Below, one piece after another: positions 1 to 58,816 of a stretch of 64,000 nucleotides of DNA; the stretch's first letter is position 1, and every line of letters begins with the position of its first letter. Location of the stretch: positions 77,537,310 to 77,601,309 of the forward strand of contig NC_079489.1 in assembly GCF_020520425.1 (NCBI RefSeq), given 5' to 3'. The stretch comes from Spinacia oleracea (taxonomy: Eukaryota > Streptophyta > Magnoliopsida > Caryophyllales > Amaranthaceae). The position numbers and the translations under genes were made by a program. A model generated the notes under the pieces. That model saw nothing but the letters and a program-made list of their open reading frames with translations. It was not told the DNA's origin and searched no databases.

Positions 1-649
1 TTGTTAATTAATTGCAAATTGCGTTTATTTAATTATACGTACGCAGTTTTTCGGCAGTTTCTTCGTTACTCATCCAAATCGAGTGATTTTTGTGTCAATT
101 CCGCATGTAAAAGGCATTCTAAAATTTTGACAAAAACAGGATTTTTCGGCCGAACCCAGAATTCTCAAATTCGAAGCCTAACTATGACTTTTCGGAGGTT
201 TTAGTTTTTCGAATGCAAAATTTCGTAAATTTAAGATGTTAAATTAAATATTTGCGATTCTTGTTGATAAATCTTGAATTTTTGATTGACCTACTGCATA
301 TGTTTAACAAGTTTGAATGCCTGGTCTTGTTAATTATGCAATCTAATTTGTAATTATGATTAATTTGTTGAAAATTAGAATAATTTAGAATTAATTTGAT
401 TTTCATAATTAATTGTAATTTAATTAGAAACCTATGATTAAAAACCACCATAAAAATTGTAAATTTACGATAAATTTTAAATTTTTATGACCTAGACTTG
501 AATCCATAACAATCGGAAATCAATTGGATAATAAATTTTCGATTTTTCGCCCTAAAATTATGAAATTAATATTATTTATTAATTTGTCATTAATTTTAAA
601 TATAAATTTTAAATTTTTATGCGATTCGTTCATATAACTTGCACGCACG

Positions 650-1225
650 AAGCAATGGACGCTTCGTGTTACCCTTAAGGGGTGTTGTATAATGCGGGCA
701 TACGACGACGAGCAAGGGAGCTCGTCGCCCGTGCGGCACGAATGCAATGAGCAAGGGCGTAGTGCACGAGCACAAGGCAGCAGCCCTGCCTTGTGTCGTG
801 TGCCACGACCAATGGACGAATGGGCATGGGCGTAGGGCGAGCCAAGGCAGTCGCGTGTGGGCAACAAGCGAGCTGCGCCACAACGCGCGCTGCCTCGCAC
901 AAGAGCGCGCAGCCTCGCGCGCAGCGAGCGCAAGCTCGCGTGCCACGAGCGCTGCGCCTAGCATTGCTCGCGCGCACAGCGAGCGATGTCGCCCGCCCAG
1001 CGAGCGATGTCGCGCGCCCAGCGAGCGATGTCGCGCGCGCACTGCGAGCGATAGCCCGCGTGCGATGAGCGCTGGCGCGCGCAGCGAGCACCAATGCGTG
1101 CGGAGGCTTGCGATAGGGATGCAGCAGCTATGCGACGAGCGCATGGGCTGCGCGCACATGGCCAGCAATGGCTGTGTGCGTGCGGCCCATGGGCTTGCAA
1201 CGCGTAGGGTGTTTGCGTTACGATT
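650..1225 (+). repeat. GC-rich repetitive block in element 1 leader
   Basis: An abrupt GC-rich island in an otherwise AT-rich leader. It contains short tandem units, for example AGCGAGCGATGTCGC starting at 978, 999 and 1020 (period 21). Long open frames occur on both strands simply because stop codons are rare in such sequence, and the predicted proteins are Ala/Arg/Ser runs. Elements 2 and 3 carry corresponding blocks with different repeat units. Confidence 0.85.
672..727 (+). promoter_or_regulatory. Conserved palindrome and hairpin in retrotransposon leader
   Basis: A perfect palindrome CCCTTAAGGG (672-681) is followed by a perfect 8-bp stem CGACGAGC / GCTCGTCG with a 6-base loop AAGGGA (706-727). 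Both are kept in element 3 (59590-59599, 59624-59645) and element 2 (19316-19337, 19362-19371), although surrounding GC-rich sequence differs. A role in RNA dimerisation or packaging is possible but is inference. Confidence 0.6.
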
Positions 1226-1810
1226 AGATCGTTCTGAATGTTTAATTTGAAAATTTCAGTTCACGTAATTTTAATTAATTTTAAAATTAATAATTTAAAT
1301 TATTTTCTTGGATTTTAATTTTGAATATTATAATTATAATAAATGTTATTTATTCTAATTATTTTACTAAAATTAAAATCATGAATTAATTTAAATGCGA
1401 CTGAAATTAAATTAAACTTTTTGGATTCAATTATAAATTTATATGAGCTTTAAATTTTAATTAAATTTGTATGTTTCCGGTTAGACTAGAAATACATTTT
1501 TATGTTTAAAATTGGTAAAGCATATGAATTTATTGGTTTAAGTGGGAGCGTTTTTTAGTCATAAACTCTTGATTAGGTCTACAAATCCTTAAGGTTAAAA
1601 CAACTTGATTAGAATTAATAAGGACTGAATAATTGGTAGATTATTGGTGCCCTTGATTAATTGCTGCAAATGTTTACGTGATGCATAATGTGTTTTACTA
1701 ACCAGCTATGTGGGCCATTCATGATAATGAATGGGTGAATGGTATATATTGTATATGTACTGTTTTGCAGGTTATGAAGTGACTAGTATGGCCCAAATAG
1801 GATAGAAAAT

Positions 1811-1893
1811 ATGGTCTGCGTACCATTAATTTGAATGTAATTGGTCTAAAGTACCAAAGTTATTTTTCAATTCAAATATGGTCTGCGAACCAT
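1811..1893 (+). promoter_or_regulatory. Twin ATGGT...ACCAT hairpins in leader
   Basis: Two small inverted repeats, ATGGTCTGCGTACCAT (1811-1826) and ATGGTCTGCGAACCAT (1878-1893), lie 51 bases apart. Both recur in element 3 (60815-60830, 60882-60897) and in element 2 (18290-18305, 18359-18374, minus). Five-base-pair stems with six-base loops can form in the RNA. Function unknown. Confidence 0.5.
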
Positions 1894-2657
1894 CAAATAG
1901 TTGTAATTAGTTATAGCTTATCCTATTTGAAGAAAATGGTGCCTCCCACGGAGATTTTCAAGACGGACTTTGAAGTCAAAGCTTCAAGATGAAGTCGGGC
2001 CATACTAGATCACAAATATCTTATGCATGTTTTAAGTTATTTATTGTTTTAAATATGTCTTAAAATGCATGAGATCAAAAGCTTGATTATGTTGCATGAT
2101 TAAGGATTTTAGTTCACTTAAAATCTAACCAACATAGTAAGAGCCTTAAGTTCCAAACTTAAAAATTGAGTTAAAAGGTGCCATGCCAAAATATACACTT
2201 GCTTGGATATCCTTTACATCAATCTAGTAATAGTTTTCGCTCAGCGAGGTGTTACTTATTGGTCCTAAAGGGGCAAGGTACACAAATAATTGTGAGTACA
2301 TGTTAGTTTTGGTGAAACTCAACGATATAAGTAAGGAGTCCTTTTATGTCGTGGCAAATTCGATAGGTTTACCTAATAAGTTCTTAGACGTACCTATCAA
2401 CCAAGAATAGTTTCTAGACTATTAGCAAAAGGCTTTTGCTTACCTAAGATGTTCTAGGATTAAGTCGACAAACTGTGCTTAGTTCTTCAATGATTTTAGG
2501 ATCTTGGAATCATTTTATTCACACCTGCCGGAACACATAATTTGAATAAAATGCTTAATAAACATTGAATTATGCATGTATGCTAGAATTTAAGTTTATT
2601 AAGAGAAACTGTGAATGGTTATTTATTTGTTTATTCTTTTCAATTGTAGTTTTTAAT

Positions 2658-5600
2658 ATGGCAAACAACAATTCATTCAACATTCGATCAATTCTCGAAA
2701 AGGAGAAGTTGAACGGGAAAAACTTCCTTGACTGGCAAAGGAACTTGCAAATAGTTCTTATGCAGGAAGAAAAGGAGTATGTCCTAGATGAGGCGATGCC
2801 CGAAGCTGCAGGCGACGGGGTCACTCAGGCAGCCCTCAATCGTTGGATTGATGCCAACAAGGATGTGAAATGTCTAATGCTCGCCACCATGAGTGCGGAT
2901 CTGCAGAAAACGTTCATCAACTCAGATGCTTTCACAATCATCAGTGAGTTGAAGAACATGTTCCAAGATCTGGCTCGAGTCGAAAGATTCGAGACTCATA
3001 GGCAAATTCTTGAGACCAAGCTTAAGAAAGGCGAGCCCGTAAGTCCACATGTTCTCAAAATGATTGGACTCATTGAGAATATGAGTCGGCTGGATCAGCA
3101 ATTTTCTCAGGAAATGGCTATAGACACCATCCTCCATTCTCTTCATAGCGGGTATGATCAGTTCAAACTGAACTACAGTATGAATAGTCTGGACAAAACG
3201 CTCACTGAGCTTCATGGTATGCTGAAGACCACTGAAAAGACGCTCAAAAGTGATAAGCAGGATGTGCTTATGGTGCGTGGGGGCAAGTTCAAGAAATCTG
3301 GAAAGAAGAGGAATGCTAAGAAAGGTGGCAACAAAGCCAGCCCAACTAAGCAAACTGGCGCCAAATCTGCAAAGAGAAAGGTCAGTCAACCCACTTCTGA
3401 ATCCGAATGCTTCTACTGCAAGAAGAAGGGGCATTGGAAGAGAGATTGCTTGAAGCTAAAGGAAGATCAGAAGAACGGAACAGTCGTTCCATCTTCAGGT
3501 ATTTTCGTTATAGACTGTATACTTGCTAATTCAACTTCTTGGGTATTAGATACAGGTTGTGGCTCACACTTATGTTCCAATCCACAGGGACTAAGAAGAA
3601 GTAGAAAGTTAAGCAAGGGTGAAGTCGACCTACGAGTGGGAAATGGAGCACGGATTGCTGCATTAGCTGTAGGAACTTACTATTTGTCGTTGCCCTCCGG
3701 GCTAGTTTTGGAACTGGAAGAATGTTTCCATGTTCCAAGTCTTACTAAAAACATCATTTCAGTTTCTTGCTTAGATGCTAAGGGATTTTCCTTTATAATA
3801 AAAGACAATAGTTGTTCGTTTTATTTTAAAGAGATGTTTTATGGATCTGCTAGATTAGTCAATGGACTTTATTTATTAGATCACGACAAACAAGTATATA
3901 ACATAAATACCAAAAAGGCCAAAAAGGATGATTCAGATCTCACCTATCTGTGGCATTGTCGATTAGGCCATATAAACTTGAAACGCTTAGAAAGACTTCA
4001 AAGAGAAGGAATTCTAGAACCATTTGACTTAGAGGATTATGGTAAATGCGAATCATGTTTACTTGGAAAAATGACGAAGCAACCTTTCTCTAAAGTTGGA
4101 GAAAGAGCAAATGAACTATTGGGTTTAATCCATACAGATGTATGTGGACCAATGAGTACAAATGCTAGAGGTGGTTTCAGCTACTTTATCACTTTCACTG
4201 ATGACTTCAGTAGGTATGGTTATGTCTACCTAATGAAGCATAAGTCTGAATCCTTTGACAAATTCAAGGAATTTCAGAGTGAAGTAGAGAATCAATTAGG
4301 CAAGAAGATTAAGGCACTGCGGTCTGATAGAGGCGGTGAATATCTGAGCTATGAATTTGATGACCATCTGAAAGAATGTGGAATTCTATCAGAATTGACT
4401 CCTCCTGGAACACCACAATGGAACGGTGTGTCAGAACGGAGGAACAGAACCTTGCTAGACATGGTCAGGTTAGTGATGGGTCAGGCCGAACTTCCATTAG
4501 AATTTTGGGGACATGCACTAAATACAGCTGCACTCACTATAAATAGAGCTCCGTCTAAAGCTGTCGAAAAGACTCCATACGAATTATGGTTTGGAAAGCC
4601 TCCAAATGTGTCTTTTCTTAAGATTTGGGGATGTGAAGTATACGTCAAACGATTAATTTCAGACAAACTTCATCCAAAATCTGACAAATGTATCCTTGTG
4701 GGCTATCCAAAGGAAACAAAGGGGTATTACTTCTACAATACATCTGAGAACAAAGTGTTTGTTGCTCGAGATGGTGTCTTTTTGGAGAAGGATCACATTT
4801 CCAAAATGACAAGTGGGAGAAAAGTAGACCTCGAAGAAATTCGAGTCGAACAACAAACTCTAGAGAATGCTCAAGATGACATTCAGGATGAAACTCAGAG
4901 ATCTTTAGAAGAATCTGGTGAGAATCATGGTCAATCTAGAAATGTTACCCCGCGTAGATCGCAAAGATATAGATCTCAACCGGAAAGGTACTTAGGTATT
5001 TTGACGAACGAGAGCTATGACGTTCTATTACTTGAAAGTGATGAACCTGCGACTTACAAGCAAGCTATGACGAGCCCTAGCTCCAAGCAATGGCAAGAAG
5101 CCATGCAATCTGAATTAGACTCCATGTCTGAAAACCAAGTATGGGATTTGGTCGATTTGCCAGATGGCTACCAAGCCATTGGAAGCAAATGGGTTTTCAA
5201 ACTGAAAAAGGACAAGGATGGGAAACTTGAAGTTTTCAAAGCTAGATTGGTTGCAAAAGGTTACAGGCAACCTTTTCACCAGTTGCAATGCTAAAGTCTA
5301 TTCGAATAATGTTAGCAATCGCTGCATATTACGATTACAAAATATGGCAGATGGATGTCAAAACTGCTTTCTTAAACGGCGTTTTAACAGAAACTGTGTT
5401 TATGACACAGCCTGAAGGTTTTGAGGATCCAAGAAATGCTAAAAAGGTATGCAAGCTAAAGAAGTCAATCTACGGATTGAAGCAGGCATCCAGGAGCTGG
5501 AATATACGTTTTGATGAAGCAGTCAGTGACTTTGGTTTCATCAAGAACGCGGACGAATCTTGTGTATACAAGAAGGTCAGTGGGAGCAAAATTGCTTTCC

Positions 5601-6598
5601 TAGTATTATATGTCGACGACATATTGCTTGTCGGAAATGACATTCCTATGTTGAACTCTGTCAAGATTTGGCTTGGGAAATGTTTTTCGATGAAGGATCT
5701 AGGAGAAGCACAGTACATATTGGGCATCAAGATTTACAGAGATAGATCTAAAAAGATGATTGGACTTAGTCAAAGCACTTATATCAATAAGGTGCTTGAT
5801 AGGTTCAAGATGGCGGACTCCAAGCGAGGCTACCTACCCATGTCTCATGGAATGACTCTAAGCAAGACTCAGTGCCCAAAAACACTTGATGAGCGTAGAC
5901 GAATGAATGGGATTCCATATGCATCATTGATTGGTTCAATAATGTATGCTATGATATGTACACGCCCGGATGTTGCGTACGCACTCAGTGCTACGAGCAG
6001 ATACCAGTCAGACCCAGGAGAGGCGCATTGGACTGCTGCCAAGAACATTCTGAAGTACCTGAAAAGGCACAAAGATGACTTCCTGGTCTATGGTGGAGAT
6101 GATGAATTAATTGTTAAAGGCTATACGGACGCAAGTTTCCAAACCGACAAAGATGATTTCAGATCACAGTTTGGGTTTGTCTTCTGCCTCAACGGAGGAG
6201 CAGTAAGCTGGAAAAGTGCTAAGCAAAGCACCATTGCGGATTCTACAACTGAAGCGGAGTACATTGCTGCACATGAAGCAGCAAAGGAAGCTATATGGCT
6301 AAGGAAGTTCATAGGAGAACTTGGTGTAGTCCCCTCCATTAAAGGACCAATAGCCCTGTATTGTGATAATAACGGAGCTATTGCACAGGCAAAAGAGCCT
6401 AGACACCACCAGAGAGTCAAGCATGTACTTCGTAGATTTCACCTTCTACGAGAGTTCGTTGAAAGAAAAGAAGTCGAGATAAGCAAAATTGGAACTGATG
6501 ACAACATATCAGATCCATTAACTAAACCTCTGCCGCAGGCGAAGCACAACTCGCACACTGCAGCTATGGGAATCAAGCATATTGGAGAATGGCTTTGA
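2658..6598 (+). pseudogene. gag-pol polyprotein of copia element 1, frameshifted
   Basis: Starts at the ATG of MANNNS. The frame is open from 2565, but the shared start in all copies argues for 2658. Domains in order: gag of the UBN2/Retrotran_gag type; CCHC zinc knuckle CFYCKKKGHWKRDC (3408-3449); aspartic protease motif DTGCGSH (3549-3569); GAG-pre-integrase LWHCRLGH; integrase core with HTDVCGPM, RSDRGGEY and NGVSERRNR (about 4130-4470); reverse transcriptase with YVDD (5609-5620); RNase H with ADSTTEAEYIA (about 6235). Reading shifts frame at 5270/5271, where 25 bases present in element 2 (9050-9074) are missing, so integrase and RT are no longer in one frame. Everything else is open, suggesting a young insertion. 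Confidence 0.93.
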
Positions 6599-7463
6599 TG
6601 TCTCTGTTTAATGTTTTAAAGTTTTAGAGTTTAAATCTTTGTAAAACATTATTGGTTAATCATTCACAATAAATGAAAAGAATTCATTTTTCCATTTAAT
6701 TTGTGGTTTATTAAATGATGAGTCCCTTCAATTTGACGATATATTCAAGATAGACTGTCAGGACCAGTCCTGTGACTAAGAAATGTCTATCAAGTGAACT
6801 TGAATGTCAAAGGTTGAAAATGGTCCCTAATCGGAGTTTTCTATAAAATTGGACGCATAGAAAACGTTAGACGATTAGAATGCAAGATGACTAGTAGTTC
6901 TGTTTCTTGAACTATGTGGACATGGCAATGTCATAATCATTTGCATAGATACTTACTTTGGGAAGACTAGTATCGGACGAGACCTATGAAACTTTACTGT
7001 AAGAGATGAAAGTCTGTCATAAGTAAATTTCATTAAATTATTAGACACTAAATCCTCAATACCTGAGTGATTTGAAGATTACTTGTTTGAGAACTGGTTG
7101 CTTTGACGTAGACCAACCGTCGCACCGTAAAAGGAGGCTATAAAGGCAACGCTCAGGTAATCACCTATCAAACGAAGTCTAATCTCAAGATCGCAAGATT
7201 GGGATTGTCCTCCCATAAATCGGGATGAGATGCTTAAAAGTTGTACAAGGCCACTCGGAGAGCTAGAAACTGTGAAATGCATGGCCGTGCTCGGATGAAT
7301 CATAGGCTATGATTATCTGTTTATTTGATCAGTTGAACTCTGAAACCGAGGAACACCTCTGGACATAATAAGGATGACAACTCTTACCTTATGTTCAAGA
7401 GCAAGCATCGAGCGACAAAGGAATTAGGAAATGCACACTTGTCCCTAAGGACAAGTGGGAGAC
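6599..7463 (+). other. 3' untranslated region and polypurine tract of element 1
   Basis: About 860 bases without a convincing gene between the pol stop and the 3' LTR. The last bases, GGACAAGTGGGAGAC ending at 7463, directly abut the LTR and are the expected polypurine tract that primes plus-strand synthesis. Confidence 0.8.
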
Positions 7464-7779
7464 TGAAGGAAATAATGCCCTTGGTCCAAGTATGCATTCT
7501 ATGTTAAGTCTAATAAATGCGGTTCAGTATTAATTAACAAGTTAATAATTCAGTGAGATCAAGTGAGCTGAATGCCTAGCTAGAGGCCGCTTCAGTTCAA
7601 GTGGAATTAATGATATTAATCCACAGCTTACTCTTGACTGAACCCGTAGGGTCACACAAATAGTACGTAAACGGATCAAGTATTTAATAGCATTAAATAC
7701 TCCATCTATGAATATTCGGAACCGACGGATCTTGGTTTCAGTGGGAGCTAAGATCGTCACAGGCAAGGAATGAATACTC

Positions 7780-8095
7780 CGGAAACGATGATATTGCCGG
7801 AAACGGAAATATGGATCGTATCGGAAATATAAATATTATCCAAGTCGTAGATGTTGCCGGAAACGGAAACATGGTACGTGTCGGAAAATATTATCGGAAA
7901 TGGAAATATTTCCAGAATCGGAAATATTGCCGGAAACGGAAATATTGTCAGAATCGGAAATATTACCGGAATCGGAAAATAATTCCGGAAACGGAAATAT
8001 TAAATATTTGTTCGAAACGGAAATTAATTCCGGAATCGGAAATATTAAATATTGTTCGTATCGGAAATGAATTCCGGAATCGGAAAATTTAATCG
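7780..8095 (+). repeat. CGGAAA/AATATT subrepeat zone in U3
   Basis: About 20 imperfect short units of the kind CGGAAACGGAAATATT and AATCGGAAATATTGCC, with a spacing of roughly 14-18 bases. It lies upstream of the TATA box, where copia enhancers usually sit. Equivalent zones occur in all full-length LTRs of the family here: about 27345-27660, 57765-58080 and, reversed, 20875-21185. Confidence 0.8.
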
Positions 8096-8540
8096 GAAGC
8101 GCATCGTACGAATAAGCATCGGACGAGGCCTGCCGGACGAGGCCCAGCACGAAGCCAGGCCATCGCCCAGCAAGCCAAGCGCGCCGCACAAACAGCCACG
8201 CCAGGCCCAGCGCAAGGCCAGGCCCAGCGCAAGGCCAGGCCCAGCAGGCTGCGCGCAGCGCGCAGCGCGCACAGCGCGCACAGCACGCGCAGCGCACAGC
8301 GCGCAGCGCGCGCGGGCGCTGAGTGGGCTGCTGCTCGCGCGCACGCATGGGGCCCATCGTGGCTGCCGTGCGTGTGTGTGCAAGTGTTTGTGTTCGTGCA
8401 CGTTTCCTAAAACATGCAGAGTTCGGTTAATGATTAAATTCCTAATTCTATTTGATAAATTAATTAAATTAGAGTTCTTATAGGATTCTAGGTTTAATTA
8501 ATTTGTATCTGAATAGGATTTCGATTCCCTTTCCATACCG

Positions 8541-8550
8541 CTATAAATAT
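8541..8550 (+). promoter_or_regulatory. LTR TATA box (element 1, 3' LTR)
   Basis: CTATAAATAT in an otherwise mixed-composition stretch, between the GC-rich block and the conserved R/U5-like block. Matching TATA boxes lie at 28073-28080 (solo LTR), 58453-58461 (element 3), 21700-21707 (LTR piece) and 20495-20502 on the minus strand (element 2). Confidence 0.7.
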
Positions 8551-8905
8551 GAGGCTAGGGCTCACAATTTATAACACAAGTTTAAAAGTATTCAAAGTGA
8601 GTTTTTGAGAGAAAAATTCAGTCACACATTTGCCTATAAAGTGCCGAAAATAATAGTACCTTAAGGGCGATTCTAGTTGGTCAATCTTAAGGCGGATCCG
8701 GACGTGCTGTGGACTATCTACGGAGGGACGACACTTGGAGTCCTAAAGACTTGTTCTTGTTCGGTTCGGGCGCAGCTAGGGAAGGCACGCAACAAAGAGT
8801 ATGCATCTAATCTATGCTAAATGATTATGTGTAAATAATATGTTTTCCTGGGTTTATGGTTTTTCCGCATGATTTATGAATTTTCATATGTATCATAACC
8901 TAACA

Positions 8906-10907
8906 CAGGCTGTGTCATAAACATAGTTTCTGTTAAAACGCCGTTTAAGAAAGCAGTTTTGACATCCATCTGCCATATTTCGTAATCGTAATATGCAGCG
9001 ATTGCTAACATTATCCGAATAGACTTTAGCATTGCAACTGGTGAAAAGGTTTCATCGTAATCCACACCGTGGACTTGCCTGTAACCTTTTGCAACCAATC
9101 TAGCTTTGAAAACTTCAAGTTTCCCATCCTTGTCCTTTTTCAGTTTAAAAATCCATTTGCTTCCTATGGCTTGGTAGCCATCTGGCAAATCGACCAAATC
9201 CCAAACTTGGTTTTCAGACATGGAGTCTAATTCAGATTGCATGGCTTCTTGCCATTGCTTGGAGCTAGAGCTCGTCATAGCTTGTTTGTAAGTCGTAGAT
9301 TCATCACTTTCAAGTAATAGAACTTCATAGCTCTCGTTCATCAAAGTACCTAAGTATCTTTCCGGTTGAGACCTATATCTCTGCGATCTACGCGGGGTTA
9401 TATTTCTAGATGGTCCTTGATTCTCACCAGATACTTCTAAAGATCTCTGAGTTTCATCCTGAATGTCATCTTGAGCATTCTCTAGAGTTTGTTGTTCGAC
9501 TCGAATTTCTTCGAGGTCTACTTTTCTCTCACTTGTCATTTTGGAAATGTGATCTTTTTCCAAAAAGATACCATCTCGAGCAACAAACACCTTGTTCTCA
9601 GATGTATTGTAGAAGTAATACCCCTTTGTTTCCTTTGGATAGCCCACATGGATACATTTATCAGATTTTGGATGAAGTTTGTCTGAAATTAATCGTTTGA
9701 CATATACTTCACATCCCCAAATCTTAAGAAAAGACACTTTTGGAGGCTTTCCAAACCATAACTCATATGAAGTCTTTTCAACAGCTTTAGACGGAGCTCT
9801 ATTTATAGTGAGTACAGCTGTATTTAGTGCATGTCCCCAAAATTCTATTGGAAGTTCAGTCTGACACATCATTGGTCTAACCATGTCTAGCAAGGTTCTA
9901 TTCCTCCGTTCCGACACACCGTTCCATTGAGGTGTTCCAGGAGGAGTCAATTCTGATAGAATTCCACATTCTTTCAGATGGTCATCAATTTCATAGCTCA
10001 GATATTCACCGCCTCTATCAGACTGCAGTGCCTTAATCTTCTTACCTAATTGATTCTCTACTTCACTCTGAAATTCCTTGAATTTGTCAAAGGATTCAGA
10101 CTTATGCTTCATTAGGTAGACATAACCATATCTACTGAAGTCATCAGTGAAAGTGATAAAGTAGCTGAAACCACCTCTAGCATTTGTACTCATTGGTCCA
10201 CATACATCTGTATGGATTAAACCCAATAGTTCAGTTGCTCTTTCTCCAACTTTAGAGAAAGGTTGCTTTGTCATTTTGCCAAGTAAACATGATTCGCACT
10301 TACCATAATCCTCTAAGTCAAATGGTTCTAGAATTCCTTCCTTTTGAAGTCTTTCTATGCGTTTCAAGTTAATATGGCCTAATCGACAATGCCACAGATA
10401 GGTGAGATCTGAATCACTCTTTTTGGCCTTTTTGGTATTTATGTTATATATTTGTTTGTCGTGATCTAATAAATAACGTCCATTGACTAATCTAGCAGAT
10501 CCATAAAATATCTCTTTAAAATCAAACGAACAACTATTGTCTTTTATTAAAAAGGAAAATCCCTTAGCATCTAAGCAAGAAACAGAAATGATGTTTTTAG
10601 TAAGACTTGGAACATGGAAACAATCTTCCAGTTCCAAAACTAGCCCAGAGGGCAACGACAAATAATAAGTTCCTACAGCTAATGCAGCAATCCGTGCTCC
10701 ATTTCCCACTTGTAGGTCGACTTCACCCTTGCTTAACCTTCTACTTCTTCTTAGTCCCTGCGAATTGGAACATAAGTGTGAGCCACAACCTGTATCTAAT
10801 ACCCAAGAAGTTGAATTAGCAAGTATACAGTCTATAACGAAAATACCTGAAGATGGAACGACTGTTCCGTTCTTCTGATCTTCCTTAAGCTTTGGAAATT
10901 CTCTTTT
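8906..10907 (-). CDS. pol of copia element 2 (protease, integrase, partial RT; interrupted)
   Basis: Open throughout on the minus strand. It starts at the second half of the gag zinc knuckle, next to the CACTA insertion, and ends at the element 1 insertion in the RT domain. It contains the protease motif DTGCGSH, GAG-pre-integrase LWHCRLGHINL, integrase motifs HTDVCGPM, QSDRGGEY and NGVSERRNR, and the RT N-terminal part with VDLPDGYQAIGSKW and VHGVDYDETFSP. It keeps the 25 bases lost in element 1. The YVDD and RNase H parts are outside the window. By eye it differs from element 1 at only a few percent of residues. Confidence 0.9.
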
Positions 10908-11130
10908 CACTAGTAGAAAAAATGCTATTAGTAACTGGCTCAATCGATGCATGTTATAAATAGTGTATTAGTAACTGGCAAGACAATTGTGCATTATGAA
11001 TAAATTGGTCAAAGCTAATATGACCGAGTATTACTAACCGACAGTATTAAATCCGGTTACATATGTTTGGTCAAACTTTGCTGCCTACATTATTCGTAAT
11101 GGTGGTTATTAATGCCCATTACCAATACAG
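10908..11130. repeat. Left subterminal repeat region of the CACTA element
   Basis: Several copies of TAGTAACTGGC and the inverse motifs GCCAGTTACTA or CCGGTTAC lie within about 220 bp of the end. In En/Spm elements such arrays bind the transposase. Confidence 0.75.
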
Positions 11131-11266
11131 CTTAGTAGAATTAAAAATTAAAAAATTAAAAACAAAAATAAAATCGTAGTTTTCTTTTCACAGTTGCTTC
11201 CGTTCGTCTTTTCCTCCTTTCCTCACTTTCCACTCTGCATCTTCATTCTCTAGTATCATATCAGTT

Positions 11267-13868
11267 ATGCAGTTCATCTCTCTCTCTCCTTCGAAATTTC
11301 CCTCAGAAAAACAATCAACTGCCTCCCCTCTGCCGCTGAAAACTCGTGGTATTCCAGCGATTTCAATGAAACCTTCTCACTCTCCCTCCCATTTACGTCC
11401 ACCGCGTCCAACGCCACAACAACCACCACCTGCTCCTTCATATCACAAGAACTCACACCGACATTATTTTCCACCATCTCTTCTTCCTCTCTACCAGAAT
11501 CAGGTAATTTTCTTTTTTTTTTCTACAGTTTTCGAATTTTAGGGTTTCTTTTGATGTTCTGATTTTTTAGATATTACAGAAATGGTTTTTAATTTTTTAA
11601 AAATTAATATAGGAAAAGGGTGGTTTGAGTGTATAATTAATTTGTTTAAGCTTAGCTATTTTGATTGGAACTATTATGAAATATGATAAAATTGTCTTCT
11701 TTTATTGATTTGTATGAATTCCTTGTAAATCTTTTGTCAAATTATCTTCTTTTAAAGGCGATGGAGATTTAAGTTGCAGGGCTATTTTCAACATTTTACA
11801 CTTTTACAGTCTTAACACTGTTGTTGCTTTTATTCGTTTGAACATACGAAGTATGATGCTAGAAGATAAGAAATTTAATTTTAGTTTTAACTCTAAAATC
11901 TGTTATTAAAGTAGTTGGAGGGAGATAAGGTCCTTGCATATGTTATCGGTATGAGAATTTTATGTGAAAGTTAATTGGACTTCTTAAGCTCAATCAATGG
12001 TGATTTGCATATGTTGTCAATATGAGATGTTTTTTGTGAGTTTTGCTTGATTTTTGATTATCATTGTCATACATGCTGATCTCCTCAAACAAAATTAGGA
12101 TGTAAATTGTATTGGATCAAAAGTAATTAGGTATATGTTAAATTTGGACCAGAGGGACAATCTGAAATTTATTCTTTTGAAGGAGACAATTTCATTATAA
12201 ATGAAACCCAAACTCCTCTATTTGTCTTACGGGTTGCAGTTAGTTGTAGTCTGTAGACAAAGGCTTGGGCGTGGATATTCTCATTTAAAGCCTTTTACTA
12301 TAGTCTTTTCATTTATGTTTTTCACTAGAAGCCAAGTCCTGGATCCATTCTAGACTTTGCAGCAGAAACATCTTCGACAATCAGTTAGAGCCCTAATGTA
12401 TACACTATGCAAAATCCATGGTCTTCTTGTTTGAGTGACTTACATGACTCTTACTAGTGCTTCCCAAGAAGTCAGCTTAGACAAGACACAATAATGGAGA
12501 TATGTCATCCTCTCTCAGGGACGTATACATAGTTACGCATATTATTCATCAAAATAGGTAAAATTTCTGCCCAATTATTCTTGTCAGAGTAATTCTCTTA
12601 TATCAATTGTTAAACTGTGCTAACCATTCCATATTGCTGACTTGTTTGGTTCTTTTTCTTGCAGAACTATTTATTCCCTTTGCCTCTAAGACATGTTTGG
12701 CTAGAGTTATGTTCTGCTGTTCAACGTCTTCGGTTCCCTCTATCTCAGGTTTCAGTTTACTCGATTACAGACGTTAGGGTCATGCCTCTTTACGTTTTTA
12801 AGAGGTGAGGGATTGCTACCGTCTAATTGGATGCAAAACTCTTATCTTCACAACATATATTCAGTTTCCGATCCGTTTGTCTAACAATAATACTTTGCTT
12901 AACATCATATTTTTTGATCATTTTTCACCCTGAGCTTAGATCATGACCAACTCATTTTACTAGACAATCATAGAAGGTTGAGAGAGGCAATTGATCAAGC
13001 ATGGTCATAATTCATTAAAAAATTCTTTTGAAGGTTTATTAGTAATTTTATCTGACAGGTTTAGTTGTAATTCTGGTGGTCTTGCACTATTATCTAAGCA
13101 TTGATTGAACCCTTATTTTGCACATAAACTAGTTCGAAAGTGACCATGTTAATAAGTAAGCTCTTCAAGAACATAATCAATCACTCAAGCTCTTTAATTA
13201 TAGCTAACATAATCTAGCTTTTACTTGACAATAATGCCTTTTTAAGATAATAATAATTCGGGTCGGGGTTGGGGGGTTTCTGAAAATTAATAACTCACAC
13301 ATATAATTAAATTTCAGAAAGGGGTTCTCAGGCCATAAAGCAATATTATTTATAAATGGGGAAAGTTAAATACTAGACTAGTATTCAGATTTGCTATAGG
13401 AATACTAGCTCAAACACTAAATTGATTAATTTAAGGGTCTCTTTTCAGACTATATAGCTTTGGATTTATCTTGTAGAGGATTTTATGTATTGATACGTGA
13501 TCTTGACAAAAGCTTACAAGGTGTGTTTGTCATTATGTTTCTCTCTTCCCTATTGTATGATATCTCCATTTAGCGGTCTTGTTCTTGTTTTATGCATATC
13601 TTCGAGATAATAAGCTTCTAGACTGCTATTATTACTCCTCCTCCCTTATAATGATTGTTCCAATTATTTGTCTTTGCTTTTTTTTCAAAATTCCTTAAAG
13701 AAAATGTTGAATCTGCCTATGAGGATATTGTCCTTATTGTTATGAACATCGACATTATCTTGTGATCTTGAGCTGAACTGCTCTTCTTTTCTTTTTCTAT
13801 TTTCCCTCTAGTACGTTGGGGATCGTGGTCGTCGGTATTCTCTTCACATGCATCCAGTGGCAGAATGA
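11267..13868 (+). CDS. Possible captured three-exon gene inside the CACTA element
   Basis: A pyrimidine-rich, UTR-like stretch is followed by an ATG at 11267. Candidate exons are 11267-11503 (ends CAG before GTAATT), 12665-12748 (after TTCTTGCAG, before GTTTCAG) and 13812-13868 (after CCCTCTAG, ends TGA). All three are in phase 0 and give 125 residues, rich in Pro/Ser/His at the start, then NYLFPLPLRHVWLEL. I do not recognise the protein. A further exon-like segment at about 15055-15105 (EGYAKRFFPYSVDPEQ) faintly resembles the end of small heat-shock proteins. Host gene capture is common in CACTA elements, but this model rests only on splice signals and phase. Confidence 0.3.
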
Positions 13869-16330
13869 ACAACACTGTGAGCAAGAAATATAAGATATTA
13901 AGTAGGGAATGCTATCTGGTTTTATTACACCAGATTCATCCCGCATCATTAACATCATTAATGACAACAAAATAATTTCCTTCCTTCAAAGCAATAGAGA
14001 TTTGGTGCATGTATAGTCTTTCTTGCTCTGATTTTATATTTTTATTAATTATAGTTAATTTATTTCCTCTATTTCAATAGGAGTCTCGTCTTTGAAAGGC
14101 GACCTCTTTTGGAATCAGGAAGCATTCCACCATCAGATTTGTAATTAAATTCTATTATTTTGGTAAATAAAAATTGAAAAAGTTTTGTTTTGAGAAAGTT
14201 GGGTGTATTCAATCCTCATACTTCCTATTAATGAATACAACAACTCATTTAAACTTAAATGGAAATATAGGAATTCAAGGAATAAAGTTTATGATGTTGT
14301 GGTGATATTCTTGGTGCCTTGGTGGATTTAAATTGATCAAAGTGTGAAATACTTTTGTCCAAGGTTGATAAATTAATGCAAGAATATATTTGTTGTTTGT
14401 CTTGATAAATTAAACTGAGGATTTCAACTATTATCCTCTGCAGCAATGAGCATTCTTCATGGGTTGTATTATTAATTGTTGTTTATGTTATGTTTTAGCT
14501 GTACATGTGCTTCTTTACACATTTATTTATAATTCCTTATTAGACTGTCCTTCTTTTTATCCTGTTAGACTGAGCCTCCTCTCTTCTATTTCTTTGAATA
14601 GAATAGTAGCTTTTCATCTGAATTATGGTGCAACATGAGATGTCATTATGATTAGGTAAAAAATAATCAATTGGTTTGGGTGACTAGCTTTATGAGAGTA
14701 CATGTGGGGGTGTTCCTATTTCTTTTTGTGCATAAAAATAATTTCATTGAGAAAAATAACGGAATGAGTGATTGTTGGTCTAGCTTAAATTCTGAATTAC
14801 ATAGCTCAAAATAAATTTAAAAGAGAAAAAAATAAAGAATAATCTTCCTCCTTGAATTGACAATAATCCCGACAAGACTTTAAAGTTTCCTACAGGATAT
14901 AGAAGTTGTTGCTTCTCATTCTTGATAAACTCCAAAAGTGGGTTTTGATTTTATTTGTTTATATACTTATATTCACATTTCCTTCTATTTATTTTTTATA
15001 TTTATTGATTAGGGACTTTTCTGTGATTGTTTGTTTTGCTGCTCTTTTTTGTAGGAAGGATACGCGAAGCGTTTTTTTCCGTACTCGGTCGATCCGGAGC
15101 AAGTGAATGCTAATCTGGAGTCTTATCTTATTTTAATTATATATAAAGCATTCTCGTATTGGTAATTGACTAGTTGTTGTGGTTGTTCATGTTCTAAAAA
15201 AGTAATTTTGATATTCTAGATTTTGGACTACCATGGATTATTGAGATCCATGGATTTTGAAACAGTGAGGAAGAAACTCATGGTCAGCTTTTAGTTGACT
15301 TTGGGACAACTTGAGGTTAGTTGTATGTTTAGTAGTGGTTCATTTAGGATACCATACTGATTGGATTCTGCTTTTATTGTGACTGGTAACTGAAATTTTT
15401 TAGTTGGTTCTTTTGGTAATAAGTTTATGTGAGTATCTTGTTAACTAATCTTTGAGTATATCTCATTTTTGGTTAATTTAATTTTCAGCAAAAGCAGTGT
15501 CGTTTCTAAGTTCTTTTGTGTTACAACTATTCTCTTCATCATCAATGTTATGCGCTCTTGGCTCTGTAAGTTATGTGCTCTTGCCCTGTATGTTCTTTTG
15601 CTGTAATGTTTGTCTGCCGGATAGTATAACTATCAATTACTTCATGTTTTGTAATAGAGTTGGTTGTCTTATACCTTTTCATATTTGATGAGCAGTTGTC
15701 ACGTGCCTCTGAGCATTCAAAAATGCTAATTCGGTATGACCTTGACATTAGTTAGCAGTTATATCATTGAGGGTCATGTTTGTTATCTATCAATGTGTGA
15801 CCCGGCCTATACAAAGAGTCCTAGAACTTATGCGTTCATTAAGTGTGGTATGTTTTTCAGTTTACTCACTGTTTGGTGAATTCTTTTGATTAATCACTTC
15901 AAGATATTGTGCCACTAATAAATTGATGAAATTTATTGTTTTTCCTCCGAATATACATTTGTAAAGAGAACAAAGAAGTTGTACCAAGAATACGATAAAG
16001 AGGTTTTAATTCTATTTTTGTTCGCAGCTTGTGTGAGAAACCACAAATCATAGTTGATCGAGCAATGTAGTCATGCTTAGATTGTTTTTGTTCTATTTTT
16101 ATTGTTAAAGTTCTGTTTAGAGGTTGCAATTCAAAATTTTTGATAACGAAATATGTTAGATACCTCATATGTACCTCCTTGTTTACTCTAATGTTTTTGT
16201 TCTATTATTTTATAAATACCACCTGTATTCTTGTGTGTGACTATTATGGTTGCTGGTACATCACAGCTACAACCGCTACTGCTGCTAGCGTAGCTTGCTG
16301 CTGTATTGTTTTTTTATGTATATGTATATA
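13869..16330. other. CACTA interior without recognisable gene
   Basis: AT-rich sequence with short spurious frames only. It has the look of plant intron sequence: T-rich runs, scattered GT and AG splice-like sites. Apart from the exon-like piece near 15055-15105, nothing supports a gene. Confidence 0.5.
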
Positions 16331-16672
16331 CTAGTAACTGGCATGAAAAGATATAGTTACTAGTATAAATTCTAGTAGTAACTGGCATATGCTTGTAATA
16401 ACAGGCAATAATCGAAGCGAGTTACGAATAAGAATTTAATAGTAACTGGCTAAGTCTAACACCGGTTACAAATAGTTCGGTTACTTTTGTAAAATTTGAC
16501 ATATAGTAACTGGCAAAAGTAAATGCCAGTTACGAATAGTACAGTATTAGTAATCGGCATTTGTTAGTTACTAATAATTTGCACTATTAGTAACGCTGGC
16601 TATAGCAACGGACAATGTTAGTTACTAAAATTCTATTTTTGCCAGTTACTAATAGCACTTTTTCTACTATTG
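16331..16672. repeat. Right subterminal repeat region of the CACTA element
   Basis: At least eight copies of TAGTAACTGGCA or its complement lie in 340 bp, in both orientations, ending in the terminal repeat. This mirrors the array at the left end and is denser. Confidence 0.8.
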
Positions 16673-17488
16673 TTTGTAATGGCCAATTCCATCACAATAA
16701 AGACAGCTTGATGTGGACTTGTCCAGCTTTGTCTTCTTTCTTGACTCAGCATTGCCCTGGGACTTTGCACCTTTCTTGAAAGGTCTCCCTTTAGCCTTGA
16801 GTAAATCTTTGGCTTCACAGTCGAGTACTATCTCAGCCTTTCTGACAAGGTGAACAAACTCTGCAACTGTTTCTTCTCTTGGTTCACTTGGGTATAGTTG
16901 CTTAAAGCGACCAAACCCACTGTTCAGTGAATTGAGCAAGATAGAGACTGCCATCCTTTCGCTTATTGGTGTTCCTAGAAAACTTAGGCGATCAAAATAT
17001 GAAAGCATAAGCTCCACATGGAACCTTAGTGGGACACCTACCCTTTGTTTAGTGCGAAGGAACTGAACATATGTTTCTTGGACCTCCATCCTAAAACACC
17101 TGTTATGAGAACTAACCTTTAGACCAAACATTGATTCAATAAACTCATGGACATTTAGGTCCCTGTCCTCCGTGTTTCCACGACAGATATCCCTCGGATT
17201 CTTGATGAGCGTAAAAGGTTCGTAAGCTACAAACCTTCTAGCCCATTCATCAGGGATATTGTTCATCATGAGACTCATAACCTTTTTGGGATCCGCATCC
17301 CAGGCGGAAAATCTTTCAGGGGTCATGTCTCTGGCATAGTAGCTTGGCATGGGATGTAACAGTACATACTCAAGTCCATTGAGTTTGACTACTTCAACTA
17401 GCTTAGCTTCCCATTCAAGAAAATTTGTTAGGTTCAGCTTGACCATAAGCTCAGAACCCATGATGATGTTTTGATTGTTGTTTGCCAT
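16673..17488 (-). CDS. gag of copia element 2 (divergent type, cut by CACTA)
   Basis: Minus-strand frame from ATG at 17488 (MANNNQ) to the CACTA insertion. It is a copia-type gag (UBN2 class) ending in the first half of a zinc knuckle, CLYCDGIGHYK. The second half lies beyond the CACTA element at about 10900. Once joined, the last Cys of the C-x2-C-x4-H-x4-C pattern is replaced by Phe. The protein shares the MANNN start and general size with the gag of elements 1 and 3, but the body (for example LTNFLEWEAKLVEVV, DRLSFLGTPISERM) shows only distant similarity. By contrast the pol that follows is nearly identical. The frame is open, with no stops. Confidence 0.85.
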
Positions 17489-18979
17489 AGTAAAACTACA
17501 ATTGAAAAAGAATAAACAAATAAATAACCATTCACAGTTTCTCTTAATAAATTCACATTCTAGCAAACATGCATAATTTATCATTTATTAAGCATTTTAT
17601 TCAAGTTATGTGTTCCGGCAGGTGTGAATAAAATGATTCCAAGATCTTTAAATCATTGAAGAATTAAGCACATTATGTATTTAGACTCAATTCTAAAATA
17701 TTTTAGGTAAGCAAAGCCTTTGCTAGTAGTCTAGAAACTACTCTTGGTTGATAGGTACGTCTAAGAACTTATTAGGTAAACCTATCTCATTTGCCACGAC
17801 ATAAAAGGACTCCTTACTTATATCGTTGAGTTTCACCAAAACTAACATGTACTCACAATTATTTGTGTACCTTACCCCTTTAGGATCAATAAGTAACACC
17901 TCGCTATGGCGGAAAACTATTACTAAGATTGATGTAAAGGTTTATCCATGTAAGTGTTATTTTGGCATGGCACTTTTTAACTCAATTTTAAAGTTTGGAA
18001 CTTAAGGCTCTTACTATGTTGGTTAGATTTTAAGTGAACTAAAATCCTTAATCATGCAACATAATCAAGCCACAATCTCATGCATAATTAAGACGTATTT
18101 AAAGCAATAAATAACTTAAAGCATGCATAAGATATAAATGTGATCTAGTATGGCCCGACTTCATCTTGAAGCTTCAACTTCAAAGTCCGTCTTGAAAATG
18201 GATTGGAAACTCCGTCTTGAATTTCACCATGGGAGGCGCCATTTTCTTCAAATAGGATAAGCTATAATTAAACTAATTACAACTTTTTGATGGTACGCAG
18301 ACCATATTTAAATAAATAAAAAACTTTGGTGCATTAGACCAATTTTACATTCAAATTAATGGTACGCATACCATATTTTCTATGCTATTTGGGCCATACT
18401 AGTCACTTTTCAATAACCTGCAAAATAGTACATATACAATATATACTATTCACTCATTCATTATCATGAATGGCCCACATAGCTGGTTAGTAGAACATAT
18501 TATGCATCACACAAATATTTGCAGCAATTAATCAAGGGTTCCAATAATCTACCAATTATTCAATCCTTATTAATTCTAATCAAGTTGTTTTAACCTTAAA
18601 GGAATGTAGACCTAATCAAGAGTTTATGACTAAAGGCTCCCACTTAAAACAATAAATTTACATGCTTTACTAATTTTAAACATAAAATTGTATTTCCTAG
18701 TCTAACCGGAAACATACAAATTTAATTAAAATTTAAAGCTCATATAAATTAATAATTGAATCCTTTAATTTATTTTCAGTTGAATTAAATAAATAAATTT
18801 AAATTTATTCAAGGTTTTAATTTTAGTAAAATAATTAGTATAAATTATAATTTATAATAATTAGATTATTCAAAATCAAATTCCGAGAAAATAATTTAAA
18901 TTTAGAAATTTAAACAAAATTAAAATCGTTTCCGAACTGAAAATTTAAAATTAAATTCAAAACGCATCAATCGTAACAA

Positions 18980-19410
18980 GACGAGGCACTTGGGCTTGCG
19001 CCCAATCCCCATCGAGTCATGCGGCAGCAGCGCCCCAACTATTGATCACACAACAAAGCACGAGAAGGCCACACGCATCGCAGCCAGCCCAGGCCACGCT
19101 GCGCGCAGCCCGCCATACTCGACGCGCCTGGTCTGCTCGCTGGGCGAGGCAGCGCGCGCTGTGGCGCAGCATCCATCGCTGCCCACATGCGTCTTCTCGC
19201 TCGGCTGTGCCTTGCCCCCATCGCCCATCGCCCATCGCGCAGCACACACGCCCAGGCAGCAATGCCTTGTGCGCGCGCCACACGCTTGTTGCTCGCTGCA
19301 TTCGTACCGCATGGGCGACGAGCTCCCTTGCTCGTCGTCGCATGCCCGCACTATACAACACCCCTTAAGGGTAACACGTAGCTTCCTTTGCTTTGTGCGT
19401 GCAACATTCA
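18980..19410 (-). repeat. GC-rich block in element 2 leader
   Basis: Counterpart of 650-1225 and 59560-60225. It shares the outer parts, including the hairpin, but its inner GC-rich part differs in sequence and length, showing fast turnover. Open frames on both strands are composition effects. Confidence 0.75.
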
Positions 19411-20125
19411 TGAGCGAATTATATAAAATTAAAAAAATTTAATTCAAATTTATAGACAAATTAATGAATCATATTAATTTCATAAATTTAGGGCAAAAAA
19501 TCGAAAATTATTAATTAATTAATTTCCGATTATTGTGGATTCAAGTCTAGGTCATAAATATTTAAAATTTATCAAAAATTAACAATTTTTATGGTGGTTT
19601 TTAATCATGAATACCTAATTAAATCGTCAATTAATTATGAAAATCAAATCAAATTCTAAATTATTCGAATTTCAATAAATTAATTACAATTACAAATTGG
19701 TTTGTATAATTAACAAGCTTAGGCACTTAAATTTGTTAAACATATAAAGTAGGTCAATCAAAAATTCAAGATTTAACAACAACAAGCGCAAATATTTATT
19801 TTAACATCTTAAAAATTACAAATTTTGCGTTCGAAAAACTAAAACCTCCGAAAAGTCATAGTTAGGCTTGGAAGTTGGAAATTCTGGGTTCGGCCGAAAA
19901 TTAGTATTTTTGTCAAAATTTTAGAATGCCTTTTACATGCAGAATTGACACAAAAATCACTCGATTTCATTGAGCAACGAAGAAACTGCCGAAAAACTAC
20001 GAATATATAATTAAATAAACGTAAATTTGCAATTAATTACAATTACGAAATTAATCACCCCTTTTAATTCCTTGCAAATTTATAAAATTTAACCATGTTA
20101 AGCAATTATTATGGAATTAATTAGA

Positions 20126-20139
20126 GGCTCGTAATACCA
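20126..20139 (-). other. Primer-binding site of element 2
   Basis: On the minus strand TGGTATTACGAGCC lies one base after the LTR end. It resembles the 3' end complement of initiator Met-tRNA (TGGTATC...), the usual primer for plant copia elements. Element 3 has TGGTATCACGAGCC at the same place. Confidence 0.75.
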
Positions 20140-20140
20140 C

Positions 20141-21505
20141 TGTAAGGTTATGATACATATAATTGAATATAAATCATGCGGAAAAACCATAAAAGCCAGG
20201 ATTCCAAATTAATTGCCACATAACAATTAGCATAATTTAGGATGCATACTCTTTGTAGCGTGCCCTCCCTAGCTGCGCCCGAACCGAACAAGAACAAGTC
20301 TTTAGGACTCCAAGTGTCGTCCCTCCGTAGATAGTCCACAGCACGCTCGGATCCGCCTTAGATTTAATTAACTAGAAGGCACTAAGGTACTATGAAAATT
20401 TCGGATTTTTATGACAAATATAAGTCCGAGTTTTAAGCCTAAAACTTGAATGAATACTTGAATTACTCGTTATAAATTGTGAACCATCATCACCTATTTA
20501 TAGGGTATGGGTATCGGATATTAGAATCCTACTAGGAAACGATTTAGCGAATCTAAATTAATCTTAAATTCAATCACTTAATTTATCTAATAGACTTAGG
20601 AAATCAATCTATACGAATCCTAATCGATCAAGGTTTCGTACACAAGCACAAACACACACGTACGCACAGCAGCCCACGAGTGGCACCAAGCGCGCGCGCT
20701 GAGCCCAGGCCCAGCAAGTGCTCGCAGGCCACGAGGGGCGCGCCTGCTGGCCTTGCTTGCGCTTGGGCTTTGCTTGCTTTGGTCGCGCGGGCTTTGCTAG
20801 GCGTTGGGCCTAGCTTCGTGCTAGGCCTTGCGTCTAGCAAGCTCGTCCGATGTTTATTCGTACGTCGCGCTTCCAATTTAATTTTCAGATTCCGGAATTC
20901 ATTTCCGATACGAACAATATTTAACATTTCCGATTCCGGAATTAATTTCCGTTTCGAACAAATATTTAATATTTCCGTTTCCGGAATTATTTTCCGATTC
21001 CGATAATATTTCCGATTCTGACAATATTTCCGTTTCCGGCAATATTTCCGATTCCGACAATATTTCCATTTCCAATAATATTTTCCGATACGTACAATGT
21101 TTTCGTTTCCGGCAACATCTACGACTTGGATAATATTTATATTTCCGATACGATCCATATTTCCGTTTCCGACAATATCATCGTTTCCGGAGTATTCATT
21201 ATTTGCCTTTGACGATCTCAGCTCCCACTGGAACCAAGATCCGTCGATTCCGAATATCCAAAGATGGAGTATTTAATGCCATTAAATACTTGATCCGTTT
21301 ACGTACTATTTGTGTGACCCTACGGGTTCAGTCAAGAGTAAGCTGTGGATTAATATCATTAATCCACTTGAACTGAAGTGGCCTTTAGCTAGGCATACAG
21401 TTCACTTGATCTCACTGAATTATTAACTTGTATAATTAACACTGAACCGCATTTATTAGACTTACCAATAAATGCATACTTGGACCAAGGGAATTATTTC
21501 CTTCA
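20141..21505 (-). repeat. 5' LTR of copia element 2
   Basis: 1365 bp on the minus strand, starting TGAAGGAAATAATTCCC at 21505 and ending CATAACCTTACA at 20141. It has the CGGAAA subrepeat zone (20875-21185), a GC-rich zone (20640-20860) and a TATA box (20495-20502). It is more diverged from the other three LTRs than they are from each other. The adjacent target bases are TTGGG (21506-21510). Confidence 0.92.
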
Positions 21506-22055
21506 TTGGGCTCCAAGAAAAGTCCGATTACTTAGTTGCTAAGTAACTTTGGCATTAAGTATTAGTTTTCCTAGTCCTACCAGAATTGGATTAATCAAGA
21601 GTTTAATTATTGCTACAATCCTAATTGGTTAAGAATTTCAATCCTAGTAGGGTTGGTAATTCTTTTCCTATTAAGACTCAAATTCCTTATTCCCTGCCCT
21701 ATAAATATGAGGCTAGGCCTCATAATTTATATACATCAAAACATATTCTTTACATATATTGTGTTCAAGGGAGAGCATAGTTTATATCCTAACCCGAGTG
21801 CATAAAACGTATCTTTTGTAATATCCTAGTTGGTTGAACCTAAGGCTGATCCGCGCTGTGGACTTTCTACGGAGGGGCGACACTTGGAGCTCTAAAGACT
21901 TGTTCTTGTTCGGTTCGGGAGCATCTAGGGAAGGCACGCATCACATTGTATGTAACCTAAATTATGCTAATTGAATATGTGGCAATTAATTTGGATTCTT
22001 GGATTTATGGTTTTTCCACATGAATTATATTGTTTGTATTATTCATAACCTTACA
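21506..22055 (+). repeat. Piece of a related LTR (3' LTR of an otherwise unseen element)
   Basis: 550 bp with a TATA box (21700-21707), the same conserved block as the copia LTRs (CGGAGGGGCGACACTTGGAG, GTTCGGTTCGGG, about 21850-21945) and the ending CATAACCTTACA. Its 5' part differs from the family and is cut by element 2. It is followed directly by LINE sequence rather than a primer-binding site, so it is a 3' or solo LTR. The missing part should lie left of element 2, outside the window. Confidence 0.75.
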
Positions 22056-49073: not shown

Positions 49074-49416
49074 CACTAGTGGAAAAACAGTCATTTGCGT
49101 CGGTCATTTAAGCCCATTTGTGTCGCACTGACGCAAATGAAAAAAGTCTTTTGCGTCGCACTTTTGGGCGACGCAAATAAGAGTCATTTGCGTCGCAGTT
49201 TAGTTACCTTATTTTATCATCCTGTAAAAGTCATTTGCGTCGCTGTTTAGTTAAACTGCGACGCAAATGACCTTTTTTTTACCTACTGAAAAGTCATTTG
49301 CGTCGCAGTTTAACTAAACTGCGACACAAATGACTTTTCAGTTTAGCAAAAGTGCGACGCAAATGACTTTTGAGCATGTTTTAAAAAAAGTCATTTGCGT
49401 CGCACTTTTGCTAGGA
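49074..49416. mobile_element. One end of a second CACTA transposon
   Basis: Starts CACTAGTGGAAAAACAGTC and carries many direct and inverted copies of TCATTTGCGTCGCA with long complementary stretches, the usual subterminal array of a CACTA family different from that at 10908. No matching right end is found downstream, so it is truncated near 49416. Confidence 0.8.
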
Positions 49417-58815: not shown

Positions 58816-58816
58816 G

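Follow-up and report, generated by a model that had tools for sequence, protein, structure and literature searches.

A large Ty1/copia family of spinach in which one leader and pol go with either of two divergent Gags

A 64,000-nucleotide stretch of the spinach (Spinacia oleracea) genome, C3:77537310-77601309 within 894 Mb and hereafter called the window, contains nested copies of a large family of long terminal repeat (LTR) retrotransposons in which one backbone, the leader and pol, is found with either of two deeply divergent Gags, here named A and B. The family belongs to Ty1/copia, with protease and integrase ahead of an RVT_2-type reverse transcriptase (RT) and a copia-type Gag bearing a CCHC knuckle. 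We consider it probable that its two Gags go back to an old replacement or split of gag, and that gag and backbone were exchanged repeatedly thereafter. Below we set out how three elements of the window revealed the pattern, how it holds across the genome, and which other explanations have to be weighed.

Results

Backbone alike, Gag not

By blastn, element 1 matches element 2 in pol at 94.9% over 1987 columns and in two stretches of the leader (84.9% between window positions 1-901 of element 1 and 20042-19141 of element 2; 87.8% between 1217-2672 and 18977-17474), with no match in gag. The LTRs are likewise related: the 5' LTR of element 2 is 84.3% identical to its 3' counterpart in element 3, and it matches the 3' LTR of element 1 piecewise (91.8% and 86.8%). 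In steps of 100 nt, identity between elements 1 and 2 runs at 86-97% over the last 1.4 kb of the leader (80% in the first step), at 44-65% from the step with the gag ATG onward, and at 90-99% from 3453 on. A first-pass annotation of the window had described element 2 in just these terms, with a near-identical pol, a related leader and LTR, and a gag of distant similarity only, and all three descriptions hold, as do its coordinates for gag (17488 to 16673, minus strand); on the same strand pol runs from 10907 to 8906. The element itself proved larger than noted there, with element 1 nested in its pol. The layout is as follows, negative coordinates being counted leftward from the window start, in fetched flanks.

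-1503 to 8905 (1 to 8905 in the window), plus strand: element 1, gag type A, young backbone, target duplication CAGGC
2658 to 3452, plus strand: gag of element 1, type A, with MANNN at its start and the zinc knuckle at its end
3453 to 6598, plus strand: pol of element 1, two overlapping frames, broken near 5290
7464 to 8905, plus strand: 3' LTR of element 1
About 21505 to -5344, minus strand: element 2, reaching left past the window, CCCAA duplications at both ends
20141 to 21505, minus strand: 5' LTR of element 2 (TGAAGG...TTACA), target duplication CCCAA at 21506-21510
17489 to 20140, minus strand: leader of element 2, of the older leader type, with a primer-site-like GTGGTATTACGAGCC at its start
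16673 to 17488, minus strand: gag type B (273-aa class) of element 2, from MANNN to the zinc knuckle, where a CACTA element breaks it
8906 to 10907, minus strand: pol of element 2 (knuckle-region end, protease, integrase, start of the RT), the rest lying left of the window
57446 to 67863 (57446 to 64000 in the window), plus strand: element 3, gag type A at 61663-62457, target duplication CCTAC

As proteins, Gag A and Gag B are 29% identical (83/288, E 1e-32), or 32-35% in multiple alignments. This likeness is not a matter of chance, since gag A of element 1 scored 285 against gag B of copy L052 and the maximum in 300 shuffles was 36; the two Gags are homologues. Gag B of element 2 is 90-92% identical to six other gag-B proteins. 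The domain PF14223 was found in all ten gag members at E 0.01, the match in the element 2 Gag being weak (E 7e-4, 19.5 bits against a curated cut-off of 27), and zf-CCHC in three of the ten members scanned, where the gag-B rows supplied stop before the last Cys. Predicted structure models of both Gags were poor, with a mean predicted local distance difference test score (pLDDT) of 37 and 59.

Edges of the exchanged block

The 5' edge of the divergent block is the start codon: both types share ATGGCAAACAACAAT, bar scattered single changes, and then diverge (21 copies; one of 22 chosen rows, L042, had no anchor and was dropped). The 3' edge falls directly behind the zinc knuckle, before KLKEDQ (element 2 aligned with 27 other copies; of 36 rows chosen, 9 were dropped for want of an anchor), with identity resuming at AAGCT(A/T)AAGG. 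Both edges are sharp to about 20 nt, and in the other copies each Gag type has a whole CX2CX4HX4C motif of its own. The same sharp edges in the aligned copies indicate that the unit exchanged is the entire Gag, capsid plus nucleocapsid. The first-pass annotation had placed the change of similarity inside the knuckle, quoting CLYCDGIGHYKREF as the knuckle of element 2; that string was read across the CACTA transposon, and in element 2 gag and pol are not adjacent. Nor is the hydrophobic frame ahead of gag a conserved coding frame, for a single-T difference among copies just before the ATG shifts it.

Gag type against backbone generation

We compared 48 copies: on the young backbone, 9 with gag A and 4 with gag B; on the old backbone, 13 with gag A and 4 with gag B (269-aa class); 17 older copies with gag B (273-aa class, including element 2); and the remnant elt4 as outgroup. 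Elements 1 (L013) and 2 (L020) were counted once, L057 was excluded for an internal duplication, and 17 of 26 gag-B loci with the 273-aa-class backbone were used (L028, L031, L032, L037, L038, L040, L044, L046 and L047 being excluded). The old gag-A copies were picked by leader pattern, and three of the 13 had no usable pol, which was thus present in 45 of the 48. A difference counted as fixed by an 80% rule.

On the young backbone, carriers of gag A and of gag B are separated by no fixed difference in the leader and none in pol, and the same is true of the old backbone. From old to young, 26 leader and 16 pol differences are fixed among gag-A carriers and 23 and 15 among gag-B carriers, 14 of the pol changes being common to both. 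By this comparison, a new backbone has passed to carriers of both Gags, in any case once and probably two times. One pol does go with two Gag types, in line with the annotation. Fixed differences to the 273-aa class number 17 in the leader and 3 in pol for old gag A, and 15 and 2 for old gag B.

Permutation of Gag labels tells the same story. Backbone distance showed no dependence on Gag type among young copies (p 0.94 for the leader, 0.97 for pol) or old ones (p 0.53 and 0.44), and none of 18 windows in a windowed distance test reached p 0.05 (lowest 0.0645); the separation of young from old gag A was reached in 0 of 2000 permutations for the leader and for pol. For pol, the distance test between the 273-aa class and the old backbone gave p 0.25 where the latter has gag B and p 0.007 where it has gag A, and nearest-neighbour tests separate both.

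In the leader tree and in the pol tree the young copies, 9 with gag A and 4 with gag B, form a clade with support of 100/100 in each. Gag type has to change no fewer than 9 times along the leader tree and no fewer than 8 along the pol tree, and the combined tree contains the starred mixed clades L034/L061/L054 and L066/L049/L067/L058. A single clade of old gag A was rejected by the approximately unbiased (AU) test (p 2e-7). Backbone and gag have therefore recombined, more than once by the trees. The comparison of gag and pol trees that the annotation had suggested thus came out, in the version run on these 48 copies, as incongruent with a sharp edge near the knuckle.

Survey of copies across the genome

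A genome-wide protein search with the element 2 Gag gave 141 scored matches from 15384 first-look candidates, non-self matches being 87-93% identical, and one with gag A gave 144 from 17932. We fetched the best 30 gag-B loci, which as the best matches to the element 2 Gag are skewed to its class. One is element 2 itself; all 29 others have a leader nearer to element 2 than to element 1, and all 29 have the shared pol, over a short stretch in some (95 nt in L031, 390 nt in L028). This bears directly on the view of the annotation, in which element 2 was itself a unique recombinant with a foreign gag. Such a view draws on the sharp difference between gag and pol in similarity to elements 1 and 3, but with 29 of 29 best-matching loci alike, and with the gag-B junctions counted below, the survey rules out a lone hybrid and we give the idea almost no credence. 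Element 2 is instead an older member (LTR K 0.037) of an old and large gag-B subfamily, later struck by a CACTA element and by element 1.

The cleanest recent exchange lies in L050-L053, copies picked for their long frames, rather than in element 2. Their leader is 99.0-100% identical to leader A (best stretch 603-1369 nt) and their pol 99.0-99.6% to pol A, their gag B being 92.3-92.8% identical to that of element 2; an A-type base stands two positions before the ATG, and gag B follows after shared bases. Each has a frame of no fewer than 1158 aa that includes Gag, given as 1342 or 1360 aa by the genome search. A Gag-less parasite of the BARE-2 type would not fit such long Gag-holding frames in gag-B copies.

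Exact leader-gag junctions number 5296 for leader A with gag A, 2378 for leader A with gag B, 355 for the older leader with gag B and 330 for the older leader with gag A, the reversed-pattern control of each giving 0. Because the older-leader marker is one base off the A marker in one subtype, a part of the 330 and of the 355 may be copies of leader A that have mutated; by hand count, about one fifth of the older leader-gag A rows listed also have an A-type base at the second marker. The oldest leader type occurs in 4 of about 100 listed gag-A rows as against 28 of about 82 gag-B rows with letters (again hand counts). In the leader directly ahead of the gag ATG, leader A-gag B junctions come in two main lengths, in proportions of about 45 to 55 among the rows listed and, for gag A, about 4 to 96 (by eye); these are two subtypes of the recombinant form, perhaps with two origins.

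Counted alone, the A-type pol start occurs in 7724 copies (those with AAGCTT instead of AAGCTA being omitted), 5091 with a gag-A tail and 2213 with a gag-B tail. Together the two tails make up 94.6%, on which ground a numerous third Gag type on this pol start was rejected, and the 420 left over would be explained by point changes at the nine diagnostic positions. A tblastn search of the window, its flanks and L001-L008 turned up no gag apart from A and B. As a separate observation, the gag-A copy L057 (C1 near 749 kb; 1597-3123, reverse strand) runs through 590 bases of gag, returns to the leader tail and restarts gag, a pattern that resembles a strand jump during reverse transcription.

Coding changes and direction of replacement

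Among fixed coding changes, 8 of 10 in gag A are silent, as are 13 of 16 and 12 of 15 in pol. In gag B, 7 of 17 are silent and 10 altering, over about 172 silent and 632 altering sites; on these small numbers its altering rate appears to lie below the neutral ratio still, yet to be looser. The remnant elt4 has the most divergent pol seen, at about 92.5-93% to every group, and ends its gag in a 96-nt knuckle tail of gag-A type; the 273-aa-class backbone has mostly gag B among the rows seen. On the evidence of this one remnant either Gag may have come first, and of the two types either may be the foreign one of the first-pass annotation.

The nested window and the CACTA insert

In elements 1 and 2 the Pfam order is Pol_BBD, gag_pre-integrs, rve, SH3_retrovirus, RVT_2, and all three elements have TG...CA LTRs with their 5-bp duplications (CAGGC, CCCAA and CCTAC). 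Element 1 cut the pol of element 2 at 8906, and the 3' LTR of element 2 lies outside the window on the left, ending at -5344 and followed by CCCAA. Kimura two-parameter distances between paired LTRs, gaps omitted, are 0.0057 for element 1 (41 gap columns omitted), 0.037 for element 2 and 0.0088 for element 3. An alternative rate of 7e-9 would place their insertions at about 0.4, 2.7 and 0.6 million years. With the rate of a paper on Athila elements (PMC2410132), 1.5e-8 per site and year, the ages are about 0.2, 1.2 and 0.3 million years.

The gag and pol of element 2 are parted by a further insertion, placed in the zinc knuckle region at their border:

10908 to 16672, strand not assigned: non-autonomous CACTA-type DNA transposon of 5.8 kb, AAA target duplications at 10905-10907 and 16673-16675

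Its terminal inverted repeats agree at 29 of 31 bases, one end reading CAATA, and seven copies of the subterminal repeat TAGTAAC all lie within 700 bp of the ends. No stop-to-stop frame longer than 120 aa, and by that measure no transposase gene, lies within it, and we take it as non-autonomous for that reason. Could the breakpoint between gag and pol be an artefact of this insertion? Its position at the border invites the thought, but AAA stands on both of its sides and gag-B copies free of CACTA have the identical boundary, by which such an origin is ruled out and its probability is negligible.

Other features of the neighbourhood belong to the same family or stand apart from it. At 27028-28434 is a solo LTR of the family, flanked on both sides by CAAAC, and the left flank from about -14151 to -5344 (L009/L010) holds an older relative with a pol of about 92% identity and a gag-A-type knuckle, in which a deletion begins inside the leader and stops 96 nt short of the gag end. 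Two repeats have no connection with our finding: an imperfect inverted one at 49222-49408 (80-87%), and at 30846-31654 a tandem duplication, about 400 bp long and diverged (78%). Another copia family has RVT_2 matches in rows (C3:23379103-23395834; C4:100756405-100778446), spaced by about 5.31-5.34 kb (once about 10.7 kb) with frames of up to 1315 aa, a spacing that resembles LTR-internal-LTR-internal arrays. In the available part of a survey of spinach elements, Angela is the main copia lineage (PMC6337768).

Discussion

How would two such Gags come to be traded across one backbone? The mechanism is most likely template switching between co-packaged RNAs. Both RNA types have the same leader, and hence probably the same packaging and dimer signals, by which they would enter one particle; the RT could then change from one template to the other within the leader and pol, which are homologous and flank gag. 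Differences in Gag alone, on shared flanks, are what would be expected under these circumstances. Presumably the two forms share their primer site and packaging signals as well as protease, integrase and RT. The Gags may first have separated when gag was captured from a different copia lineage, or else through an ancient split of alleles that recombination in the flanks kept isolated.

Several points weigh against a history of repeated exchange of this kind. A single clade of young gag B is not rejected in the AU test (p 0.092), and the recent exchange may for that reason have been one event that was then amplified. Most inner branches are poorly resolved and the bootstraps of the leader tree and the young tree are unsettled, both the young gag-B copies (chosen for their long frames) and the old ones number only four each, and the backbone compared in young gag-B copies is the leader and pol, not the LTRs. 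Between the 273-aa class and the old backbone the leader shows a clear step, pol a weak one (2-3 fixed differences). Finally, co-packaging and switching are steps that we infer rather than observe, and conversion between chromosomal source copies would give an identical pattern. The annotation had named template switching or conversion as the cause: the incongruence of gag and backbone, with its sharp edges, is in keeping with switching, which is here inseparable from conversion in a source copy.

The rival to be taken most seriously holds that the two Gags are very old alleles of one locus which diverged in place, recombination keeping the leader and pol uniform around them, as a long-lived balanced polymorphism. 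Flanks homogenised right up to the edges of gag speak for it, as do the open frames of both Gags in young copies and the silent character of most fixed changes in gag A, less marked in gag B; however, the two would have to be maintained for very long before protein identity falls to about 30%, and we regard it as possible but doubtful. Exchange outside the particle, through gene conversion or ectopic recombination of integrated copies, seems to us less likely still. A huge nested family offers templates in plenty, but the 2378 exact junctions of leader A with gag B imply that the exchange most likely preceded amplification, in a source copy, and element 2 has paired LTRs and matched target duplications; the latter speak against its having arisen by a later ectopic joining of two insertions. 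At the far end stands the idea that there was no recombination and that gag merely evolves very fast. GAG and PROT do vary more than RT, RH and INT in plant elements, as far as the available part of one survey goes (PMC6317226). Yet no intermediates between A and B occur among the copies read, the edges are too abrupt, and within each type gag is about as conserved as pol, which rules fast evolution out and leaves it scarcely any probability.

Returning to repeated exchange between two Gags, we could speculate that the family behaves much like one sexual population with a two-allele capsid locus, its leader and pol passing freely between elements and its Gags held by balancing selection over sweeps of the backbone. 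We offer this tentatively, as something less likely than otherwise; one candidate for the selective force would be, for example, an advantage of rarity against restriction directed at Gag or mediated by small RNAs, much as restriction of Ty1 in yeast depends on the type of Gag.

The nearest parallel is in yeast. In Ty1/Ty1' mosaics, likewise of Ty1/copia type, one pol and LTR are combined with either of two gags and the gag and pol trees disagree, and the available text describes one gag as horizontally transferred from another species and as bearing on copy number control; the reconstructed Gags are 93 residues and three indels apart, with a nonsynonymous divergence (dN) of 0.125 (PMC7055915). 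A domesticated Ty1' Gag is able to restrict Ty1' (PMC10951436). As far as those accounts go, the spinach family is like Ty1/Ty1' in having a divergent gag on a shared body (here the leader and pol compared), breakpoints at the gag frame, and discordant histories of gag and backbone. It is unlike them in that its Gags are far more divergent (about 29% identity), both forms are present in thousands in one genome, and the swap is apparently recurrent across backbone generations.

Among plant elements, Athila and the grass centromeric elements are Ty3/gypsy, the latter CRM, and Onsen is a copia family. BARE-1 and BARE-2 of barley are reportedly copia partners within one genome that show mosaic evolution, BARE-2 living without a Gag; unlike BARE-2, the family described here has long open frames for both Gags. 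In Athila Va-rec and related Arabidopsis recombinants, gag, pol and env differ in family origin, and in Va-rec part of gag and the whole of pol moved into a pol-less element; the accessible text describes no whole-gag block with fixed edges (PMC2410132). Arabidopsis Onsen recombined pairwise during transposition bursts, attributed to co-packaged RNAs, the very mechanism that we propose, although the exchange was among members of one family and the text available describes no divergent gag block (PMC5668417). Recombinant subfamilies of grass centromeric retrotransposons turned prolific, and co-packaging with template switching was proposed there too; in the portion available, the exchanged parts are LTR and polyprotein segments, and no fixed-edge gag block is described (PMC4079200). 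Among the literature matches listed, as far as their available text goes, none describes a plant family whose backbone occurs with two Gag types. Against these known cases, the family is unusual in how deeply its Gags diverge, in its fixed module edges and in its copy numbers.

A broad survey of plant elements, in its available part, left GAG and PROT out of its trees as too heterogeneous to align (PMC6317226), and because of this omission a family split in Gag alone is easily overlooked. With thousands of copies in one genome, the spinach family lets nature itself test which Gags are able to work with one pol and at what frequency parts are exchanged, and the persistence of capsid types becomes directly measurable.

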